Below, in pieces: positions 3,016 to 21,995 of a stretch of 32,934 bases of DNA. The stretch's first letter is position 1; each line of letters opens with the position of its first letter. Under the pieces are notes generated by a model. The model was not told the DNA's origin and did not search any database. It saw only the letters and a list, made by a program, of their open reading frames with translations. This stretch comes from Anaerolineae bacterium. Lineage in GTDB: Bacteria; Chloroflexota; Anaerolineae; Aggregatilineales; UBA3940. A program made the position numbers and the translations under genes. The DNA lies in contig JAFGMS010000165.1 in NCBI GenBank assembly GCA_016927375.1, positions 1 through 32,934 on the forward strand. Reading direction: 5' to 3'.

Positions 3016-4503
3016 ATGCTTACACTCGAATTTCTCATCGCAGCACTAACACTGCCTTCTGCTCTCCCCCCTATTCATGAGGAAGAGATGGAGAGGGGGG
3101 TGCCCATCACCGACGTGGTGATCGACTCGCGCCAGGCCGGCCCAGGGGCGCTGTTCGTCGCCCTGCCCGGCGAGAAGGCCGACGGTCACCAGTACGTCAC
3201 CCAGGCCCTGGAGAAAGGCGCCGCTGCAGCCATCATCGACCAGGACATCGCGGTCTCCTACCCCATCCTCGACCTGACGGCCATGGGGACACAATATACC
3301 GTACCCCTCCAGACCCCAATCTGCCTGAAGGTCGATAACGCCCTACTCGCCCTCCAGGAGGCTGCCCGCCAATGGCACCGCCAATGGGCATCGCAGTCCA
3401 ATCGGCGCACTATCGGCATCACCGGCAGCGTAGGCAAATCGACCACCAAAGAGGCCGTCGCCGACGTGCTGGCCCAGCACTACGCCACCCTCAAGAACGA
3501 GGGCAGCTACAACAACGAAATCGGCCTGCCCATAACGGCCCTCAAGCTGCGCCCCGACCACGAGCGGGCTGTGCTGGAGATGGGCTTCTATGTGCCGGGC
3601 GAAATCGACCTGCTGACGGGCATCACCCCTCCCCAGGTCGGCGTGGTCACGCTGATCGCGCCGGTGCACCTGGAGCGGGCCAAGAGTGTCGAAACCATCA
3701 TCCGGGGTAAGGCCGAGCTGCTGCAGGCACTCCCGGCAGACGGTACGGCCATCCTCAACCTGGACGATGAGAACACAATGAAGATGGCGGCCCTCACCCA
3801 GGCGAAGGTACTCACCTACGGCCTCACTCCACAGGCCGATGTATGGGCCGACCAAATCGAGGGATTGGGGCTGGAAGGCATGCGCTGCGTGCTGCATCAT
3901 GATAGGAAGAGCCATCCAGCACATCTGAAGCTGCTGGGCCGCCACAGCGTCTACACCGCGCTGGCGGCCGCCGCCACCGGCCTGGTCGAGGAGATGAGCT
4001 GGGCAGAGATCATCGATGGGCTGGAGAGCACAGCCGGCAAGCTGCGGCTGGTAGCCCTGCCCGGCTTGCGCGGATCGACCATCCTGGATGACACTTATAA
4101 CGCCAGCCCGCCATCCATGCTCGCCGCGCTCGACCTGCTGGCCGATTTACCCAACGCGCGCCGCATCGCTGTACTGGGCGACATGTTGGAGCTGGGTACA
4201 CACGAGGACGAGGGCCATCGACAGGTTGGCCGGCGCACTGCCGCGGTCGCCGATGTGCTGGTGACGGTCGGCGAGCGGGGCAAGATCATCGCCCATGAGG
4301 CGCAGCACAGTGGGATGTCTCCGTCTCGCGCGCACATCGCGTCGACGGCACAAGAGGCCATCGAGTTCCTGCAATCAATCATCCAGAAAAGCGATGCAGT
4401 GCTGGTTAAAGGTTCGCGAGCAGTGCATATGGAGCAAATCGTCACGGCACTGCACGAGGTAGAAAGCAGTGGAGGAAACAATGACCAGAATAGTTGTGCC
4501 TAG
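3016..4503 (+). CDS. murF: UDP-N-acetylmuramoyl-tripeptide--D-alanyl-D-alanine ligase (MurF)
   Basis: Mur ligase N-terminal 'DSRQAGPGALFVALPGEKADGHQYV', P-loop 'GITGSVGKSTTKEAV', 'NNEIGLP', 'DDTYNASPPSMLAAL', 'VLGDMLELG', C-terminal 'VLVKGSRAVHMEQIV'. Confidence 0.96.
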   Translation: MLTLEFLIAALTLPSALPPIHEEEMERGVPITDVVIDSRQAGPGALFVALPGEKADGHQYVTQALEKGAAAAIIDQDIAVSYPILDLTAMGTQYTVPLQTPICLKVDNALLALQEAARQWHRQWASQSNRRTIGITGSVGKSTTKEAVADVLAQHYATLKNEGSYNNEIGLPITALKLRPDHERAVLEMGFYVPGEIDLLTGITPPQVGVVTLIAPVHLERAKSVETIIRGKAELLQALPADGTAILNLDDENTMKMAALTQAKVLTYGLTPQADVWADQIEGLGLEGMRCVLHHDRKSHPAHLKLLGRHSVYTALAAAATGLVEEMSWAEIIDGLESTAGKLRLVALPGLRGSTILDDTYNASPPSMLAALDLLADLPNARRIAVLGDMLELGTHEDEGHRQVGRRTAAVADVLVTVGERGKIIAHEAQHSGMSPSRAHIASTAQEAIEFLQSIIQKSDAVLVKGSRAVHMEQIVTALHEVESSGGNNDQNSCA

Positions 4504-4810
4504 CCATGTCAGGGCCCAAATCAAAGAGATTGTCAAGGCTTTCAACGAGCGAGAGATCGACGATCCCGAATGTTATTACGTAGTACGGTTTCGAGAGCAG
4601 TACGTGTTTCTGGCTCAAGATGGCCTGGGTGGACCTTATCAGATTTGTCGTCTAACCTACACCGGCGATATGAATCGTTGGGAGTTTGCCATCTATCGGC
4701 ACATCAAAGACAGGTACGATCCTGGCGTTGGGCCTTTCCCCGGATCTGAGCATCTTGATGGCACGATTGAAGGCGCCATGCGAGCCGGCATCGAGGCCTA
4801 TCCTTGCTGA
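4481..4810 (+). CDS. Small conserved protein of unknown function, paralog A
   Basis: 109 aa MTRIVVPSHVRAQIKEIVKAFNEREI...ICRLTYTGDMNRWEFAIYRHIKDRYDP...FPGSEHLDGTIEGAMRAGIEAYPC. Two further copies follow. Start overlaps the murF 3' end and is preceded by ggagga. Confidence 0.88.
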   Translation: MTRIVVPSHVRAQIKEIVKAFNEREIDDPECYYVVRFREQYVFLAQDGLGGPYQICRLTYTGDMNRWEFAIYRHIKDRYDPGVGPFPGSEHLDGTIEGAMRAGIEAYPC

Positions 4811-4851
4811 GCATAGCCACAGCAATAACCCGCGAGAATAGCATAGCTCAG

Positions 4852-4927
4852 GTGTTGGGTGGCGGATAGTTGGCAGGCCAAAGGCCTGCCGCTAAAGTCA
4901 TTTCGCGCTTGCGCCGCCACCTAACCT
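4852..4927. mobile_element. 76-bp MITE-like element 1
   Basis: Imperfect terminal inverted repeats gtgttgggtggcgg ... ccgccacctaacct. Internal perfect 8-bp hairpin ggcaggcc-aaa-ggcctgcc (4872-4890). Same length and termini as the element at 7116-7191. Confidence 0.7.
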
Positions 4928-4953
4928 GCAGGGACAGACTGGGCAAGGGCAAG

Positions 4954-4996
4954 ATGGAACAGATTGTCACGGCATTATGTGAACGAGGAGAGCGCG
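4954..4996 (+). pseudogene. Duplicated 3'-terminal fragment of murF preceding paralog B
   Basis: atggaacagattgtcacggcatta (MEQIVTAL) matches the murF C-terminus 'MEQIVTAL' (atggagcaaatcgtcacggcactg at 4429), in the same relative position upstream of the small-gene ATG. Confidence 0.8.
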
Positions 4997-5326
4997 ATGG
5001 CTAAGAAAGCAATTCCGGATGAAGTCAGAGCCCAGGTTATCGAGATTGTCGAGGCTTTCAACAAAAGCAAAGAAGTCAGGTATGCCGAGTGCCGATATAT
5101 GGCGCGGTTTGAGCAAATACCTGTACCTTGACCGGGCAGGATATGGCAAGCAACGTTCGATTTGCCGCCTGACCTACACCGGGATATCAACAAGTGGGAT
5201 TTCGCTATCTACAAATACAGTGACGAAGCTTACGATCCTCACGAATGTATGTTCCCGGGCGTAGGGCACATAGATGGAACCATACAAGGCGCGATGCGAG
5301 CCGGCCTCGAGGCCTACTCGTGCTGA
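4997..5326 (+). pseudogene. Small conserved protein of unknown function, paralog B (two frameshifts)
   Basis: MAKKAIPDEVRAQVIEIVEAFNKSK...ARF | SKYLYLDRAGYGKQRSICRLTYTG | DINKWDFAIYKYSDEAYDPHECMFPG...DGTIQGAMRAGLEAYSC*. The homologous protein runs across three frames: apparent 2-nt loss near 5108-5112 and 1-nt loss near 5181. Confidence 0.85.
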
Positions 5327-5387
5327 GCGCGACATTTCACCCTGGTGTCGCGGCGCAGGGGAGAAAAACAGCAAGAAGGAGAAAGAG

Positions 5388-5882
5388 ATGGCAAAGAAAG
5401 CGAAAGCTGCTCGCAAGCAAGGTATTCCGGATGATGTAAAAGCCCACGTCAATGAGATCGTCGAGACGTTCAATAAGAGCGAGCCCGCGGCAAAGAAATG
5501 CCCGTACGTGACGCGCTTCCGAGGTAATTATCTGTATCTTGATCGTTCCGAAGCCCGTGCATCGTCGCCGATTTGTCGTCTGAAATACACCGGCAAGCTC
5601 GATGATTGGGGCTTTGCCATCTACAAATACAGCCGGGATGCCTATGACGCAGATGAGTGGTTTTTCCCGGGTTCGCAACATGTCAATGGGACAATAGAAG
5701 GCGCCATGCGGGCCGGCCTCGAAGCTTATCCACCCAGACAAAGGGTTGGCTGTCTCCAGAGGGGACGAGGTTGCTTATTGATGCTGTCCCCGGCATGGCT
5801 CCTGGGACATTTGACGATATGGTTGATGCGCAAAAAAATGGAACAGGACATTCGAGCTTACATCGAAGACGAGCAGCTATGA
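5388..5882 (+). CDS. Small conserved protein of unknown function, paralog C with C-terminal extension
   Basis: MAKKAKAARKQGIPDDVKAHVNEIVETFNKSE...PICRLKYTGKLDDWGFAIYKYSRDAYDADEWFFPGSQHVNGTIEGAMRAGLEAYP, then ~50 extra residues. Stop overlaps the mraY start (ATGA). Confidence 0.87.
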   Translation: MAKKAKAARKQGIPDDVKAHVNEIVETFNKSEPAAKKCPYVTRFRGNYLYLDRSEARASSPICRLKYTGKLDDWGFAIYKYSRDAYDADEWFFPGSQHVNGTIEGAMRAGLEAYPPRQRVGCLQRGRGCLLMLSPAWLLGHLTIWLMRKKMEQDIRAYIEDEQL

Positions 5883-6892
5883 GAGACCTGGCATTTGGCT
5901 TATCACTGGGAGGGCTGACCTTCCTGTTCACTATCATCTGGGGCGACCCCTTTATTGAAGTGCTGCGGCGGCTAGGGATCGGCAAGCAGGTGCGGGAGGA
6001 GATCAGCGATGTGCACAGCCGCAAGGTAGGCACCCCAACCATGGGCGGGCTGATGATTCTGATCCCTGTGCTGATCGTGACGCTGGGTTTGAACATCGCC
6101 AGGCTGCTGGTCCCCAACGTGATCACCGGCCGCTCGATCCTGGTCCCAATGGCGGTGTTGGTGCTGTATGGCGGCCTGGGCGCGCTGGACGACTGGGAGG
6201 GCATCATGGGTGCGCGGGCCGTCGGCGAAGGTCTGTCGGCGCGCGTCAAGTTTGCCGGGCAGATTGTCATTGCATTTGCTACATCGATGGTGCTGATGTA
6301 CGGGCTCGATACGCACTCGGTCGTGCTGCCGGGCATTGTATTCAAGTTCAACTTGGGGGTATTTTATCTGCCTGTTGCCACGCTGCTCATTACCTTCATG
6401 TCGAACGCTGTCAACCTGACCGACGGTCTGGATGGGCTGGCCGGGATCATCACTGCCAGCGCCTTTGCCTGCTACGGCATCATCGCCTTCATGCAAGGGC
6501 AAACCTACCTGACCCAGTTCTGCTTTACCATGGTCGGGGCATGCTTTGCCTTCTTATGGTTCAACGCCCATCCGGCCCAGCTCTTTATGGGCGATACCGG
6601 CTCTCTGGCATTGGGCGCAACGCTGGCAGTTGTGGCCCTGATGACCGGTCAATGGCTGATTCTCCCAATCATCGCCATCATCCCGGTCGCCGAGGCCGTA
6701 TCGGTGATGCTCCAGGTGGCATCGTCACAGCTAAGCAGACGGTTTCTTGGTGAGGATCGACGTATCTTCCTGCGCACGCCCCTTCACCACCACTTCGAGA
6801 AGCTGGGCTGGAGCGAGACACAGATCGTGCAGCGCTTCTGGCTGGTCGGGATACTGGCCGGGATGGCCGGAATAGCCCTGGCGCTGCTGTAA
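5879..6892 (+). CDS. mraY: Phospho-N-acetylmuramoyl-pentapeptide-transferase (MraY)
   Basis: 'HSRKVGTPTMGGLMIL', 'NAVNLTDGLDGLA', 'FMGDTGSLALG', 'FLRTPLHHHFEKLGWSETQIVQRFW' are MraY signatures. Multi-TM. Upstream in-frame ORF extension rejected. Confidence 0.97.
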   Translation: MRDLAFGLSLGGLTFLFTIIWGDPFIEVLRRLGIGKQVREEISDVHSRKVGTPTMGGLMILIPVLIVTLGLNIARLLVPNVITGRSILVPMAVLVLYGGLGALDDWEGIMGARAVGEGLSARVKFAGQIVIAFATSMVLMYGLDTHSVVLPGIVFKFNLGVFYLPVATLLITFMSNAVNLTDGLDGLAGIITASAFACYGIIAFMQGQTYLTQFCFTMVGACFAFLWFNAHPAQLFMGDTGSLALGATLAVVALMTGQWLILPIIAIIPVAEAVSVMLQVASSQLSRRFLGEDRRIFLRTPLHHHFEKLGWSETQIVQRFWLVGILAGMAGIALALL

Positions 6893-7115: not shown

Positions 7116-7191
7116 GTGTTGGGTGGCAGTTGGCGGTAAGATAAGCAAAGTGCATCTAGGAAACATGTGTGTCTCCGCTGCCACCCAACCT
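7116..7191. mobile_element. 76-bp MITE-like element 2
   Basis: Terminal inverted repeats gtgttgggtggcag ... ctgccacccaacct. Same termini and exact length as element 1, with divergent interior. Confidence 0.7.
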
Positions 7192-7280
7192 ACGACTATC
7201 ACTGTTGAGAGGTACATTTCAGAGCTTTTAACTCGTTGCTCATGCCTCATTGCTCGTTGCTATTTTCAAGGGAGTTCCCA

Positions 7281-13106: not shown

Positions 13107-16100
13107 ATGGAAGGGCAAATATCTACCGGCGTTATCTTTGTGCTCATAGGATTGGTCGTGATCGTTCTGATCCTCCTTTCCGCGAGCCTTGCCAGCCGCC
13201 GCAGGCGGCAACTTTTTGGCAGCGAAGAGTCGCTTATCCCTGTCAACCTGGCATCGGTCAATGACGCTGTAATTGTAGCTACCGTTGGCGGGCGAGTCCT
13301 CTTTGTCAATGAGTTAGTGCGACAGTGGTTCGATCTGGACTCCAGTGATGCTGACTTGTGGCTGCTTGCCCAGCGGGTTACCCCTCCCACAGCCTTTCTG
13401 GAGCTTTTCGCAGCTGAAGGACAGGCTTCATTTGCTCTCAGAGAACGCAATTTTGAGGCTGTCTCCCATCGCGTCGCAGTCGGGGAAACTGCCCAGTTTA
13501 TTGTGGTTCTACGCGAGCAGACTCCTCTGCCGACCCTGGGGCGAGAAGAGCGAGGGTCAAGCAAAGCTTTACAGGTGCTCAGTGAAGTCACCCGTTCACT
13601 GAACGCCACCTTAGAATTGGAACCCACGCTCAGCGCTACCTTGGAAGGCGTTCGTCACCTGATTCCCCACGATGCCTCACAGGTTTGCCTGTGGGAACAG
13701 GAACGCGAATTATTGATCGTGGCGGCACGTGCCGGTGTCGTCCGCTACGCGCCAGAGACTTTTGGGCCTGATGATCCAGGTTATGCAAATTGGATCGCCC
13801 GCAAGCGTCAGTCGTTGCTGGTTCCCAATACAGAGGCTCCCGAACCCCATCTAGCCAACCTGCGCCCGGTTGATTCGAGCATCCACAGCTACATCGGTGT
13901 GCCGCTGCGTGTGCACAACCGCTTTATCGGCACATTGGAAATAATGAACCTGGAGCCCAACACATTTAGTCAGGAAGACCTGGCTCTGCTGGCACTCATT
14001 GCCGAGCAGGCAGCAGTAGCTATCGAGAATGCTCGCCAGTATGGCACCCAAGCCGAACGGGTGACTGAACTCTCAGGGCTGCAAAAGATTGCTCAGGCCA
14101 TCAGCAGCCTGCAAGATCCTTACCAATTATTCGCTCAGCTCGGCCAGCGCGTGGCTGAATTGATGAAGACCGAGATGGCCGGTGTGCTGCTCTACGACCG
14201 CGAACACGAACGGCTGATTGCCCAGAAACCACAGCATGGTGTGCTCGATTCCCTGACCAACCGCTACATCATTCCCCTTGAAAAAGGCAGCCAAGTGCGT
14301 GGTCTATGGGAAGAAGTCTCCTTCTGGTTTAGCAACGATATCTACAGTGATAAATTGGCCGCAGAGCTTGAGCTGCTGGAACTGGCCGAGCTGACAGGCG
14401 CAAAAACAACAGCCATGGCCGCTATGACCCTTGGCGACGAGCGCATCGGGGTGCTTCAGGTCTCCAATAAGGAAGATGGAACCCACTTCATCATGGAGGA
14501 CATCCGCCTCCTGCAGATCTACGCCGACCAGGCGGCTATCGTAGTAGGTAGTGCGCGGCTTTATACTGAGGAACAAAGCCGCGTAGCCGAGCTTCAGGGC
14601 CTCCAACAAATCGTTCAGGCTATGAGCTCGTTCAGCAATTTGGAAGAGCTATACGCCCAGCTCACCCAACGCATCGCCGAGCTGATGGAGGTTGATATTT
14701 GCGGCATCCTGCTGTACGACTCTGAACAAGAAAGACTGGTTGCCCGCCTGCCGTTCTTTGGGGCAGACGACGATATTATCCGTGATTATAGCATCAGCGT
14801 TGGGAAGCGTGGGCTGGCCCGAGAGATCTGGCGCGAACACGAGTTATTCGTCATCAATGATGTATTCAGTGATCCGTCCGTCGATAACCTAGGTATCCAC
14901 GACATACTCCGTGACGCTGGTTTGCACACACTGCTGTTGGCCCCCTTAAGTGTTGCCGGGCGGCGTTTTGGTATGCTGCAGATCTCCAACAAGAAGGATG
15001 AAAGCGGTTTTGATGACAGCGACAAGCGGCTGGCGACTATTTTCGCCGGGCAGGCTGCAGCGCTGATCGAAAATGCACGCCTGTACCAAGACACCGATGC
15101 TACATTGCGCAAGCGTGCCGCCGAGCTGCGTTCTGTTTCACGTATCAGTCACGAGTTGAACGCAACGCTGGAACTTGAGCGCATCCTCGAAGTTATCGCA
15201 GTTGAGGCCCAGAGGGCCGAGGGCGCAGTGTGGGGCGGTCTGATTATGTTCGACTGGAACGAGGACCGTTCTGAGATCAGACCGCTCATGCATTTTGGGA
15301 CAGAGCTAAATGAGCAGTCCCGTCTCCTGGCCCAGGCCGCCGCTCGCAGCGGCGAGACGCTGACCATCGATGACTTCGAGCGTGTTGCCCACTACCCCAG
15401 CCCTATTCCGGAGGCACGCTCGGCACTGATCGCTCCAATCTACTTTGAAGGCAAAGCCGTTGGTGTCATATCACTCTACAGCGATCGGACTCGCGGTTTA
15501 GGTCCCAGCGCCGCCGAGTATATCCAGGCCTTGTGCTCACAGGCCACCATCGCGGTAACCAATGCCACCCGCCACGCTGAGCAGGTCGAGCGATCTGATC
15601 TGCTGCGCCGACGCGCTGAACAGCTCACACAGCTTTTTGAACTGGGCCGCATGTTCCGCAGCGACCAGTCCATGGACGAGAACCTGGTGTCCGTCGCTCG
15701 TGCCATCAGTGAGACGGTAGGTTTTGGTACCGTGCTGATGAGCATGCTTGACCCCAGCCGCGAGACATTGCAGCATGTCGCTCAAGTGGGGATCCTGGAT
15801 GATATTTTCGCCAAGCTCAGTAAGAAAGCCGTCCCCTGGGATAAGATCGAGCGCCATATGGACGACGAGTACCGTATGAGCAGCTCATATCTTGTGATTC
15901 ATGAGAAGAGTGCGAACCTGATCGAGACATTGGGAATTCCACATTACACCAAGACCTTTGGAAGCGACAGACCAGGTAGCTGGCAGCCAGGCGACTTGCT
16001 TTTGGTCCCACTGCGCTCAACTAGCGGCGAAGTGATCGGTGTTGTGAGCGTCGATCAGCCGCGTGATGGCATGATCCCCACCCGCAATACGGTTGAGCTT

Positions 16101-19100
16101 TTGGAGATCTTCTGCAACCAGGCAGCCATCGTTCTGGAAAACAGTCGCTTGTACCAGTCGGCGGAAGAGCGCGCTGAGGAGCTCAGCCAGAGCCTAGCTA
16201 ACTTGAGCAAAAGCTATACCGAGCTTGATAATCTCTCCCAGGAGATGATCCGTAAGGACGCCGAGCTCTCACGTGCCAATGAGTTGCTTGAGCAACGCGC
16301 CCAGCGCCTGTTGGCACTCCACCGCGTAATGGAAAGTATAGACAGCACACGCGGCCCAGAGACCGTTCTCCGAGACATCACCGCCGCAGTTGTCGAGGAA
16401 ATGCAGCTCGATCAGTGTGTGGTTGCGATGGATACCGGCCAAGACGAGGTGCACCTGAATGTCATCGCAACTGGAGGCCGGCTACCCCGTGACCTTGATC
16501 TCACGCCGCTGCTGGATGGAACGGATCCTCTATCTGAAGCCCGTGAGACCGACACAGCTGTGTTCTTCGACACGGACAGTACTGAGCGCGGTCCAATTGC
16601 CAAGTTCACCAAGGCTATTGGAGCGCAGGCAATTCTGGCCCTGCCTCTTCATATGGACAGCTCACACGCAGGCGCATTGATGGTTGGTAGCATCCAGCAC
16701 GGAACCAGCTTCAGCGAAGATGACCGGGACCTGTTCAACCTGCTCGCCAGCCAGATCGAAGTTGAGTACGAGAATGCCCGTCTGTACCAGGCTGTCCAGG
16801 CAGAGGCTTCTACGGCCTCATCTGAACGCGATCGCTTGCAACAGCTCCACCTGATCACCACTGCACTGCAACAGGCCACCCGCATGGAAGATCGTCTATC
16901 TGTTATTGCGCGTGGTGTCCGGTCGGTAGGTTGGGCTCGCGTCGCAGTAATGCTGCTCAACGACAATATGGACGTCACTCAATTGGTTTCGGCAGGCTAT
17001 GACGAAAAAGAGGAGGAGCTGCTGCAGAAACGTCTGCTGCCCGGCAAAGTCTGGCGACGCCGGCTAGACGATCCCCAGTTCATCTCAATGCGCATTGGCT
17101 CATCGTATTTCCTGGCTCATGACCACCCCTGGGTGCTTAAGAATGTCGAAGAAGCCAAACCGAGTGATGGGCCGTCGAATGGGGATGGCAATCAGTGGCA
17201 TCCTAAAGATCAGATTTACCTGCCGATGTACGCAGGTAGCCGGATTATCGGCATGATCAACCTGCGTGATCCGGAGGATAGCTTGCGGCCAACTGAAGCC
17301 AGCCTGCGCCCGCTGGAACTTTTTGTCCAACAGGCTTCCTCTGCGCTTGAGAATACGCGTCTCTACCAGGAGACGCTGGAGCTACAAAGCTACAACGAAG
17401 CTATCGTCCAATCCATTCAGCAGGGCATCATCGTACTGGATGAACAGGGTAAAATAGAGACTTTCAATACTTTCCTGAGGGAGAGTTACCAGTGGACTGA
17501 TGAAGCAATTGGGCAAACGCTCCGCAATGCGGCCCCGGCGTTGCGTGAGACGGGCTTGCTCGACAATCTGATGAATCTGGTTCAGGAAGGCAAGCCCGCC
17601 GAGCGTCTGGAAGTACAGCTCCCCGGCGAGGGCGAAGCCCGCAAGGCAAACATCTTCGCTTACCCGCGCTTCGATGAAGATGGTGTGGTGAATGGCGCGG
17701 TAGTTCTGATCGAAGACATAACTCAGCGTGCCCGCCTGGAGGCTGATATTGCCCGCCGCGGTCAGCAGTTGGCTGCCCTGAGCGATGTCTCACGACGCAT
17801 CACCGCGGCACTCACCACTGATGATGTGCTTGAGAGCGCCTTCCAGGAAGCAAAAGAGGTTATCGCCCACGATAAAATTGCGCTTTGGCTGCGCACTGAT
17901 GACGACAGCTCGCTTCGTCTCATCGCTGCTCAGGGCTACAGGAAAACCGAGGTCGCCAAGAAGAAGATCTCCATTGAGGATGACTCTCGTTTCAGCCAGA
18001 TCATCGAGGATCGGCTGCCAGTAGTTATCGGTGATATACAAGCAGAAGAGAAATCAGCCAGCAGTAGAAAACAAATCAGCCGCAGCTGGCTGGGCACACC
18101 ACTTATTAGTGGCGGCAGCGTAACCGGACTGATGGTTTTTGAGAAAGATGAGGCGTTTGCCTACGCTCCTGCCGATGCTCAGGTAGCAGCATCTTTCGCC
18201 AACCAGGTAGCCGTCGCGCTGGAGAACGCTCGCTTGTTTGAAGAGGCTACTGAACATGCAACCGAGCTCGACAGCCGTAATAAACGACTTGCACTGCTCA
18301 ATCGGATCTCATCAACTATCGGCCGCTCCCTTGATCAAAGCGGCATTCTGCAGACTACCGCCGACGAACTGGGCAAGGCACTCGATCTTCCTCAGGTCAG
18401 TGTCTTTTCGTTCGATCTAGATCATGCGGTAGCACGGTTGAATATTCAATATCCATCCAATCCGGATGGCTCGGTCGCTGACCTGAGCTTTCCCTTGGAA
18501 GACAATCCTGCCATTGTCTATCTCCAGGAGAATAAAGAGCCCCTCATTGCTGAAGATGCGATAGGCGATCCTCGCATGGCGGCCATGGCCCGCGTCATGT
18601 CAGTGCGCAAGATCAAATCAGCCGTGTTGATTCCACTCGTTGTCGGCAACGCTACCATTGGCCTTTTCGTCATTGAATCGACAGAAGAGTCGACCTCATT
18701 CGAGCCGGAACAGATTGAGCTGGCCCAGACAATCACCAATCAGGCTGCCGTCTCAGTGCAGAATGCCCAGCTGTTCCAGGAAACGGTGGCCCGCCAACAC
18801 GAGCTGAGCATCTTGTTCGAAGCAGGACGTATCGCAGCTTCGTCGCTCGACCTGGATAAAGTCGTAAACAACGCGGCAGGATACTTCCTGCGGGCCTTGC
18901 CGGTCGACGGATGCACCATCTCCCTGCTGGATGATGCAGAAGATACACTGACAACCCTGATCAGCCTGCACAAAGATGAAGGAATCTTGCCGCTCCAGGA
19001 AGATGAGAGCACCCGCTATGGATTGAAACAATACCCGGCTACGGCCACCGTGATCACCGAGCGGAGTGTGGCCACCCTCGATGTATCTAGCCCGGAGTTG

Positions 19101-21995
19101 TCTCAGAGTGAGACTGAATGGCTGCGCCAGCACAACATCACATCGACAATGTTGATACCCCTTGTAGCCCGCGACCAAACTATTGGTCTGGCTGAGGTGT
19201 GGATGTCGACCAGAGAGCATCGTTTCAGCCAACGTGATATCCGTCTGGCGAAAGCTCTGGCAGCCTCCGTCGCTACTGCCATGGAGAATGCCCGCCTACT
19301 CGATGAGACCCAGAAACGTCTGAATGAGCTGGCGACTATCAATGAGCTCAGCCGTGCGCTCACCCAGACTATCTCCACCGAAGATCTCTATGAGATGCTC
19401 CAGGAGCGTATCGGGGATCTATTCGACACACGCGCAATGACCATCGCCCGGCGCAATCCCCTGACTGGCTCCCTTGAGTTCCCACTGGCACTTCGCAACG
19501 GGCTGCGTATTCATCTTGAGCCGCTTTCCTTTGGCGGTGACCTGTACAGCCATGTGATCGAAACTTGCTGGCCGCTGCTCATCAGCCGGGACCTGGAAGC
19601 CAGGCTAAAAGAGCTGGGCATCCAGCACACAGAAGCTGATTTGAAATCGTTCCTGGGTGTGCCGTTGATCAGCGGTGAGAAGGTTCTGGGAGTATTGACT
19701 GTGGAAGACTACGAACATGCGACAGTCTTCCACGAAGCTGACTTACGTGTCCTTCAGCCTATCGCCGCACAGGTAGCCGTCTCAATGGAAAACGCACGGC
19801 TGTACAGCGAGCTGGAGCAGCGGCTATCAGAGACAACCACCCTGCAAGAAGTCTCTCGTGTGGTAAATTCCGCGCTCGATCTGCAAGAGATCTTCGAGCG
19901 CGTGGTTAACGAGCTTGCCAATGCCTTCAAATATCCCTTGATCGGGTTGTATATGATTGAGGAAGACGAACTGCACATGCAGGCACAGCATGGCTACAGT
20001 CCTGAAGAGATCACTGACTTCCAGCAGATATCCCTCAGTCAGGGCATCATAGGTCGGACAGCATCCAGCGGCGATGCACAGTTTGTGCCGGACGTCACGC
20101 GTGACTCAGATTACATATCCGGCAACAGTCCGGTCTCCAGCGAGATCGCGGTACCCATTATCTCCGATCAAAAGGTGCTTGGTATTCTGGATGTCCAGTC
20201 AGGCGCCGATCACCAGCTTGGGGAGAACGATCTGCAGTTGCTGCAAACCTTTGCCGGACAGGTGGCAACCGCCATCAGTAACGCCCGGTTGTATTCTCAA
20301 ATGGTCGAGCTCTCAACCGAGCTGGAGAAGCGCGTCGAGGACCGCACGCGCGAGCTGCGTGAAGAACGTGACCGCATTGATATCCTATACAAGATTGCCG
20401 TTGAGCTGACTGCCAGCCTCGACCTTGACATGGTGCTTAACCGTGCTCTGCAGATGGTCGGTGAGGCGGTCAGCGGCGAGCGTGGCTCGCTGTTCCTGAT
20501 CGACCCACAATCTGACCAGTTGATCTTCCGTGCATCGATGAGCCAAAACGAGATTCTGCCGCCAGGTGGACGGCAGATTCGACTGTCACGGCACGAGGGT
20601 ATGGCGGGGTGGGTGATGGATAACCGCCAATCGATAGTGGTAGATAACGTCCAGCTCGACCCGCGCTGGGCCAAGGTGCCCGGCACCGAAGCACAACGCT
20701 CATTGCTCGGTGCGCCACTGGTTGCCAACGAAGAAGTGTTGGGCTGCATCTTCTTTGCCAGTGATATCGAAAATGCCTTCCATGAAGGACATCTACGTCT
20801 GGTCGAGGCAGCGGCCAACCAGGTTGCGGCTTCTATCAATAACGCCGAGTTGTATCGCTTGATCCGCGATCAGGCTGAGCGTCTGGGCTTGATGCTGCGC
20901 AGCCAGCAGACCGAGGCTGCAAAATCACAGGCCATCCTTGAGTCCATCGCCGATGGCGTTATGGTGTCTGACCAGGCCGGCGAGATCATTCTGTTCAACG
21001 CTGCTGCCGAGCGCGTCCTGGACCTGAGCCGAGAAGACGTCCTGGGACGCCCATCGACCGACCTGACAGGGCTTTATGGGGCCAGCGCGGAAACGTGGGC
21101 CGAAGCTCTGCGCGAGTGGAGTGCAAACCCCTCCGAATACCAGGGCGCGCTGTTCACCGAGCAGATCGAATTTGGTAACAAAGTCGTCTCGGTGCATGTC
21201 TCTCCGGCAATACACGGAGAGGAGTTCATCGGGATGGTCTCGGTCTTCCGCGATATCAGCCGTGAGGTGGCCGCAGATCGCATCAAGAGCGAGTTTGTAG
21301 CTACGGTCTCTCACGAGCTGCGCACACCAATGACAAGTATCAAGGGATACGCCGATCTGCTGCTGCTTGGCGCTGCCGGAGAGATTTCATCAGAGCAGCG
21401 GCGCTTCCTGGAGATTGTCAAGAACAATGCCGACCGGCTCAGCCTATTGGTCAATGACCTACTCGACATTTCCCGCATCGAGCAAGGTGGTCTTGATCTG
21501 GATGTCCGGCCGTTTGACCTGACTGAGATCATCAAAGACGTCATAGCTACTATCGAGGGACGCAGGGGTAACGAGGATCGTACCCTCCGGATTGCGACTG
21601 AGATACCGGAGGAGCTGCCTAAAATCGAAGGCGACTATGACCGCATTACCCAGATCATCAGCAATGTCCTAGCAAACGCTTACCAATACACTCCTGATGA
21701 CGGCACGGTCACGGTACGCATCACCCCGGACGAAACCGGTATCCAGATCGATGTAATCGACACCGGCATTGGCATCCCTGATGAGGATCAGCCGCATGTC
21801 TTTGAACGGTTCTTCCGGGGCGAGGATCCGATGATCATGCGCACCGCTGGAACAGGACTGGGCCTGGCTATTGTTCAGCGCCTGATCACCATGCACCAGG
21901 GCCGGATATCCTTTGAGAGCAAGCAGGGTGTTGGCACAACATTCCATGTGTGGCTGCCCTGCAAGCTGGAGCAGAGTGCTGAGGGGCAGCTTTGA
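13107..21995 (+). CDS. Giant multi-GAF/PAS sensor histidine kinase (2962 aa)
   Basis: N-terminal TM (VIFVLIGLVVIVLILLSASLA). About 13 GAF-like units each ending in 'AVA.ENARLY'-type motifs. PAS-like segments. HisKA 'FVATVSHELRTPMTSIKGY' (His ~2736). HATPase 'NVLANAYQYTPDDG', 'DTGIGIPDED', 'GTGLGLAIV'. Confidence 0.96.
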   Translation: MEGQISTGVIFVLIGLVVIVLILLSASLASRRRRQLFGSEESLIPVNLASVNDAVIVATVGGRVLFVNELVRQWFDLDSSDADLWLLAQRVTPPTAFLELFAAEGQASFALRERNFEAVSHRVAVGETAQFIVVLREQTPLPTLGREERGSSKALQVLSEVTRSLNATLELEPTLSATLEGVRHLIPHDASQVCLWEQERELLIVAARAGVVRYAPETFGPDDPGYANWIARKRQSLLVPNTEAPEPHLANLRPVDSSIHSYIGVPLRVHNRFIGTLEIMNLEPNTFSQEDLALLALIAEQAAVAIENARQYGTQAERVTELSGLQKIAQAISSLQDPYQLFAQLGQRVAELMKTEMAGVLLYDREHERLIAQKPQHGVLDSLTNRYIIPLEKGSQVRGLWEEVSFWFSNDIYSDKLAAELELLELAELTGAKTTAMAAMTLGDERIGVLQVSNKEDGTHFIMEDIRLLQIYADQAAIVVGSARLYTEEQSRVAELQGLQQIVQAMSSFSNLEELYAQLTQRIAELMEVDICGILLYDSEQERLVARLPFFGADDDIIRDYSISVGKRGLAREIWREHELFVINDVFSDPSVDNLGIHDILRDAGLHTLLLAPLSVAGRRFGMLQISNKKDESGFDDSDKRLATIFAGQAAALIENARLYQDTDATLRKRAAELRSVSRISHELNATLELERILEVIAVEAQRAEGAVWGGLIMFDWNEDRSEIRPLMHFGTELNEQSRLLAQAAARSGETLTIDDFERVAHYPSPIPEARSALIAPIYFEGKAVGVISLYSDRTRGLGPSAAEYIQALCSQATIAVTNATRHAEQVERSDLLRRRAEQLTQLFELGRMFRSDQSMDENLVSVARAISETVGFGTVLMSMLDPSRETLQHVAQVGILDDIFAKLSKKAVPWDKIERHMDDEYRMSSSYLVIHEKSANLIETLGIPHYTKTFGSDRPGSWQPGDLLLVPLRSTSGEVIGVVSVDQPRDGMIPTRNTVELLEIFCNQAAIVLENSRLYQSAEERAEELSQSLANLSKSYTELDNLSQEMIRKDAELSRANELLEQRAQRLLALHRVMESIDSTRGPETVLRDITAAVVEEMQLDQCVVAMDTGQDEVHLNVIATGGRLPRDLDLTPLLDGTDPLSEARETDTAVFFDTDSTERGPIAKFTKAIGAQAILALPLHMDSSHAGALMVGSIQHGTSFSEDDRDLFNLLASQIEVEYENARLYQAVQAEASTASSERDRLQQLHLITTALQQATRMEDRLSVIARGVRSVGWARVAVMLLNDNMDVTQLVSAGYDEKEEELLQKRLLPGKVWRRRLDDPQFISMRIGSSYFLAHDHPWVLKNVEEAKPSDGPSNGDGNQWHPKDQIYLPMYAGSRIIGMINLRDPEDSLRPTEASLRPLELFVQQASSALENTRLYQETLELQSYNEAIVQSIQQGIIVLDEQGKIETFNTFLRESYQWTDEAIGQTLRNAAPALRETGLLDNLMNLVQEGKPAERLEVQLPGEGEARKANIFAYPRFDEDGVVNGAVVLIEDITQRARLEADIARRGQQLAALSDVSRRITAALTTDDVLESAFQEAKEVIAHDKIALWLRTDDDSSLRLIAAQGYRKTEVAKKKISIEDDSRFSQIIEDRLPVVIGDIQAEEKSASSRKQISRSWLGTPLISGGSVTGLMVFEKDEAFAYAPADAQVAASFANQVAVALENARLFEEATEHATELDSRNKRLALLNRISSTIGRSLDQSGILQTTADELGKALDLPQVSVFSFDLDHAVARLNIQYPSNPDGSVADLSFPLEDNPAIVYLQENKEPLIAEDAIGDPRMAAMARVMSVRKIKSAVLIPLVVGNATIGLFVIESTEESTSFEPEQIELAQTITNQAAVSVQNAQLFQETVARQHELSILFEAGRIAASSLDLDKVVNNAAGYFLRALPVDGCTISLLDDAEDTLTTLISLHKDEGILPLQEDESTRYGLKQYPATATVITERSVATLDVSSPELSQSETEWLRQHNITSTMLIPLVARDQTIGLAEVWMSTREHRFSQRDIRLAKALAASVATAMENARLLDETQKRLNELATINELSRALTQTISTEDLYEMLQERIGDLFDTRAMTIARRNPLTGSLEFPLALRNGLRIHLEPLSFGGDLYSHVIETCWPLLISRDLEARLKELGIQHTEADLKSFLGVPLISGEKVLGVLTVEDYEHATVFHEADLRVLQPIAAQVAVSMENARLYSELEQRLSETTTLQEVSRVVNSALDLQEIFERVVNELANAFKYPLIGLYMIEEDELHMQAQHGYSPEEITDFQQISLSQGIIGRTASSGDAQFVPDVTRDSDYISGNSPVSSEIAVPIISDQKVLGILDVQSGADHQLGENDLQLLQTFAGQVATAISNARLYSQMVELSTELEKRVEDRTRELREERDRIDILYKIAVELTASLDLDMVLNRALQMVGEAVSGERGSLFLIDPQSDQLIFRASMSQNEILPPGGRQIRLSRHEGMAGWVMDNRQSIVVDNVQLDPRWAKVPGTEAQRSLLGAPLVANEEVLGCIFFASDIENAFHEGHLRLVEAAANQVAASINNAELYRLIRDQAERLGLMLRSQQTEAAKSQAILESIADGVMVSDQAGEIILFNAAAERVLDLSREDVLGRPSTDLTGLYGASAETWAEALREWSANPSEYQGALFTEQIEFGNKVVSVHVSPAIHGEEFIGMVSVFRDISREVAADRIKSEFVATVSHELRTPMTSIKGYADLLLLGAAGEISSEQRRFLEIVKNNADRLSLLVNDLLDISRIEQGGLDLDVRPFDLTEIIKDVIATIEGRRGNEDRTLRIATEIPEELPKIEGDYDRITQIISNVLANAYQYTPDDGTVTVRITPDETGIQIDVIDTGIGIPDEDQPHVFERFFRGEDPMIMRTAGTGLGLAIVQRLITMHQGRISFESKQGVGTTFHVWLPCKLEQSAEGQL

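Follow-up and report, generated by a model that had tools for sequence, protein, structure and literature searches.

The named protein family nearest to the one described here is DUF3024 (Pfam PF11225), which is of similar size and has a collinear arrangement of a helix, strands with an RLxYxG..W-like motif and a C-terminal helix. Only 3 of 49 members of our family, an unnamed domain of ~108 residues, match DUF3024 and do so weakly (best E 0.023); none reaches the Pfam curated cut-off of 24.9 bits, and the family is not assigned to it. The aligned DUF3024 sequences lack our family's motif, FPG...DGT[IV]EGAM.AG..AYP. Profile-profile comparison, based on shallow alignments, gave P 2e-4 and a probability of 46% over 29 aligned columns, and a subset, likewise shallow, gave 17% over the whole length. 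Closer in sequence are outer relatives from Anaerolineae without any Pfam family (L132-L139), which match over the whole domain at HMM E values of 1e-12 to 1e-19 and have in common with our family RFRGQFCYIDAY and HLCRLRYFGD..GWGFAFYTYS, but carry a W/P-rich insert of about 25 residues and are devoid of DEW[FM]FPG and DGT[IV]EGAM. AlphaFold2 models of paralog A (see below) and a canonical member (pLDDT 79.9 and 89.8, respectively) consist of a helix, 4-5 strands and a helix. Fold searches of the PDB and a viral library with the two models returned no match with E <= 0.001; the XisI-like proteins (PDB 3d7q and 2nlv) ranked near the top with both, at E 0.18-0.3 and a TM-score of about 0.3, which is not significant. 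No catalytic motif was recognised in the domain, and the sequence search for relatives of solved structure found none.

We analyzed a window of 32,934 nt, which is the entire contig C280 of an uncultured Chloroflexota bacterium whose genome comprises 5.0 Mb in 547 contigs, and compared it with the nearest relative among the genomes examined, a sister species of the same genus (G001, which contains record JAFGLD010000369). On the plus strand of the window, the genes for murF (ORF 3016..4503; TIGR01143, 381 bits, E 5e-114) and mraY (5879..6892; TIGR00445, 255 bits, E 1e-75) enclose three copies of a small gene: paralog A (4481..4810; intact, 109 aa), paralog B (4997..5326; a probable pseudogene) and paralog C (5388..5882; intact, 164 aa, with the family core reaching to about 5735 and followed by a C-terminal tail). 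The initial annotation had placed three paralogs between these two genes, and this holds: the alignment of A, B and C at the DNA level spans the whole cores with identities of 0.62-0.64, and the two flanking genes are secured by their profile matches. A and C are 48% identical. Paralog A does start inside murF, with its ATG at 4481, such that the two genes overlap by 23 nt and the last MurF residues, NDQNSCA, are encoded by the start region of A. At the other end, the stop codon of C and the start of mraY share 4 nt, which read ATGA in the window and GTGA in the sister species. The gene order in the latter is murF-A-C-mraY, without B.

The stretch preceding B is, judged from its nucleotides, a true relic of murF. 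A stretch of the murF tail encoding MEQIVTA (4429..4449, plus strand; repeat family D8, located by a placement scan) is identical at 18/21 positions to ATGGAACAGATTGTCACGGCA at 4954-4974, which also encodes MEQIVTA and lies within the relic (4947..4993, plus strand), while the next best of 65,787 other placements on both strands of the window reaches 14/21. The best match of the relic is the murF of the sister species, to which it aligns over a longer stretch (23/27) with a Smith-Waterman (SW) score of 39, compared with a maximum of 30 in 2,000 spacer shuffles. The relic and the sister murF have AAG-ATG (Lys-Met) in common where the murF of the window has CAT-ATG; the relic thus keeps a state lost from the local gene, as would be expected if it had truly been copied from murF before the two species separated. 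It is located 43 nt before the start of B, and its source 52 nt before the start of A. Nothing of murF other than its tail found a match in the spacer that separates A from B. The significant nucleotide match, the near-equal position and the retained AAGATG, together with a moderately supported grouping of A and B in the tree (see below), argue for the earlier proposal that the duplicated unit consisted of the murF tail and the small gene.

A third murF vestige had been suspected just before mraY. This stretch, MEQDIRAYIEDEQL, is the C-terminus of C itself, and its similarity to the murF tails is not significant in 2,000 shuffles (p = 0.76 for the murF of the window, 0.07 for that of G001 and 0.05 for the relic before B). 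In the sister species, C begins with the peptide MEQEMA, which we also considered as a murF tail and rejected since it aligns with the ribosome-binding stretch of C in the window (GGAGCAAGAAATGG vs GGAGAAAGAGATGG).

Several other elements were observed in the window. A hairpin-like element of 74 nt is located between A and B (4853..4926; arms GTTGGGTGGC / GCCACCTAAC), and a second stretch of the same length lies just 3′ of mraY (7117-7190). Both have inverted arms, GTTGGGTGGC / GCCACC(C/T)AAC, with different interiors, and a DNA search of the same genome found no other full copies; they may represent a small repeat, either mobile or structural. Before murF (2902-2940) and after mraY (7231-7255) there are intergenic repeats of the CTCGTTGCTCATCCCTCATCCCTCATGCCTCATCCC type. 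Further downstream, 13107-21995 is a single, unusually long ORF of 2,962 aa, which by eye resembles a long series of GAF-type sensor repeats with a histidine kinase at the end.

The two intact paralogs differ in their divergence between the two species. A is 94% identical (92.5% in DNA) and C 62% (core 71%), compared with 82% for murF and 88% for mraY. The dN/dS ratios of about 0.10 for A and about 0.15 for C, the latter with saturated dS, show that both are under purifying selection. The proportion of synonymous differences (pS) is 0.23 for A, 0.69 for C, 0.37 for murF and 0.48 for mraY; the low value of A and the high value of C hint at gene conversion or replacement outside the simple story. 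A has diverged from the family norm, with GVGPFPG in place of DEW[FM]FPG. The tail of C is hardly conserved between the species in sequence, despite a hydrophobic segment of 19 residues at the same place in both: the membrane-helix-like CLLMLSPAWLLGHLTIWLM in the window (5772..5828, plus strand; detected by 19-residue mean hydropathy, 1.62) and LGCLVFFVLLPWRLLVGFV in the sister species (2.25).

The family itself is widespread but patchy. A and C match no family in Pfam or NCBIfam at E <= 1 and nothing in PHROGs below 0.079. A profile search of one genome collection detected 54 loci in many phyla, among them Chloroflexota, Pseudomonadota, Bacteroidota, Planctomycetota, Acidobacteriota and Omnitrophota. 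The family is found in 4 of 154 genomes of the order to which the window belongs and in 33 of 396 of the class (roughly 8% of the Anaerolineae sampled; the weaker of these 33 are the outer relatives described above), and no homologues were found elsewhere in the genome of the window. This patchy occurrence across phyla suggests horizontal spread. None of 50,697 phage and 72,556 plasmid records carries the family, which gives no ground for regarding it as phage or plasmid cargo, and one match was found among IMG/VR contigs.

The initial annotation had linked the small protein to the synthesis of lipid I precursors, and had itself named a random scatter of relatives without murF or mraY as evidence against such an association. 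The occurrence found here comes close to this. We surveyed 57 + 19 locus records (some of them duplicates, with flanks of mostly 5 kb and 1.5 kb), in which murF or mraY is near a family gene only in the sister species and in 0 of the 75 other records; the recurrent association across lineages that would mark an accessory family of the dcw cluster was not seen. In the same taxonomic family, G002 has a murF-mraY gap of 172 nt; in the same order, murF and mraY abut in G012, and most other relatives do not have murF immediately before mraY. Judged from these gene orders, the insertion is limited to this genus among the genomes examined. A role of the family in lipid I synthesis is not supported.

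DUF7309-DUF6930 is the Pfam pair encountered most often right beside family genes (5/91 neighbours). In a follow-up with profiles, this protein adjoins a family gene at 6 loci in about three lineages (Bacteroidota, Omnitrophota and Chloroflexota), where about 0.01 pairs would be expected by chance according to our own estimate, which assumes about 4,000 genes per genome. Five of the six genes are directly downstream on the same strand, and DUF6930 has only 17 matches in 47 family-bearing genomes. The genome of the window harbors one DUF6930 gene, on another contig and not adjacent to A, B or C. We found nothing on the function of DUF3024, DUF7309 or DUF6930 in the literature. Defence-system models are scattered among the neighbours, with at most 2 neighbours per model. 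In G054 (L009 7857-10492), two genes directly follow the family gene on the same strand, one for a SWIM zinc-finger protein and the other for a UPF0158 protein; in G001, a distant relative of the SWIM-containing protein is encoded about 1.4 kb 5′ of murF (L008 5151-6680).

The adjacency above chance favours a small domain that serves as an adaptor or in binding, usually together with the DUF7309-DUF6930 protein. Tentatively, A and C may belong to such a domain, working elsewhere with this partner and here being expressed as passengers on the murF-mraY transcript, with no action on lipid I, although we regard this reading of the function as doubtful. It is unlikely that A and C were recruited to peptidoglycan precursor synthesis, with C anchored in the membrane beside MraY, A binding MurF or its product, and both kept for lipid I formation. 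Both genes have indeed been kept between murF and mraY in two species, A is very conserved, and the hydrophobic tail of C and its 4-nt overlap with mraY are common to both; however, neither murF nor mraY is near any other family locus examined, the insert is missing from relatives of the same family and order, and the location in the operon would also follow from hitchhiking. An envelope role retains some plausibility through the position kept beside mraY and the membrane tail of C. A more specific version, in which a mobile small domain was captured at the junction and turned into a two-part envelope module of this one genus, with a soluble and fixed A overlapping murF and a membrane-anchored C overlapping mraY, that acts on the hand-over of UDP-MurNAc-pentapeptide to MraY, seems to us very improbable. 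The only other cell-wall neighbour seen in the survey is a penicillin-binding protein 1C-like gene, 35 nt downstream of which a family gene is located in L030 (2347-5318). The tentative adaptor reading is the one we prefer for the function of the domain.

To place the three paralogs in the family, a maximum-likelihood tree of 52 members was considered, with the support mark of the tree tool at 95/80. A and B are sisters at 87/86, a moderate value of which the bootstrap side is below the mark, and the C copies of the two species pair at 98/96. The A branch has a stem of 0.85 and tips of 0.01-0.04, which suggests fast change followed by fixation. The five sequences from the murF-mraY junction are monophyletic in only 34% of bootstrap trees, such that descent of A, B and C from one acquisition is not firm and there may have been two. 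As DNA identity is only 62% between A and B but 92.5% between the A genes of the two species, we infer that the duplication predates the species split and that B was later lost from the sister species. Alternatively, B could have been acquired earlier or independently, with the murF tail left behind when an imported murF with A displaced the old murF end by homologous recombination. The low A-B identity, the closer match of the relic to the sister murF than to the local one and the weak clade would fit such a history, which is nonetheless quite improbable given that A and B group as sisters, that the relic precedes B much as the murF tail precedes A, and that insertion twice at the same site is the less likely course.

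B retains a canonical family sequence, but two deletions, the first of 2 nt and the second of 1 nt, break its reading frame and enclose a TGA; it is probably a pseudogene. Of the three small genes in the initial annotation, three copies therefore exist, but B is not intact. B is known from one metagenome assembly, and its two deletions sum to 3 nt with canonical residues kept outside the shifted stretch, yet assembly errors in an intact third gene are a highly unlikely explanation, as the two indels are separate, with about 50 nt and a stop codon lying between them, and B is absent from the sister species.

Tandem duplication together with the murF end is hence the reading that we prefer, and the locus probably arose as follows. 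A member of a horizontally spread small-domain family would have entered the murF-mraY junction in the ancestor of the genus, breaking neither gene and extending into murF on one side and into mraY on the other. It would then have been duplicated in tandem together with the 3′ end of murF, by either unequal recombination or replication slippage, giving rise to A and B, and the murF scrap before B would be what is left of the second murF end. A would have changed quickly before it was fixed, B would have decayed in the genome of the window and disappeared from the sister species, and C would have gained its membrane-helix-like C-terminal tail and the 4-nt overlap with mraY. The horizontal origin, the order of these events and a translational coupling at the overlap are parts of this account that we infer. 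Two copies of the family lie 2 kb apart in G625 (L120, G625:C179:1292-3712) and four matches are present in G435 (L124), both Anaerolineae; local multiplication of the family may thus extend beyond this genus.

These observations suggest that a gene of apparently horizontal origin can settle in an essential operon, leave it unbroken and duplicate along with part of a neighbour, and that its copies can then go three ways, one being fixed, one dying and one acquiring a membrane tail. They also bring out an unnamed protein family of many phyla, for which the DUF7309-DUF6930 neighbour provides a first handle on function. The duplication is of an ordinary kind: as in other tandem duplications within operons that carry along the end of a neighbour, there are three head-to-tail copies, of which one is dead and one diverged, and the upstream gene has left a relic. 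What differs from the ordinary case is the site, the murF-mraY junction within an essential cluster, and the family concerned, which is undescribed.
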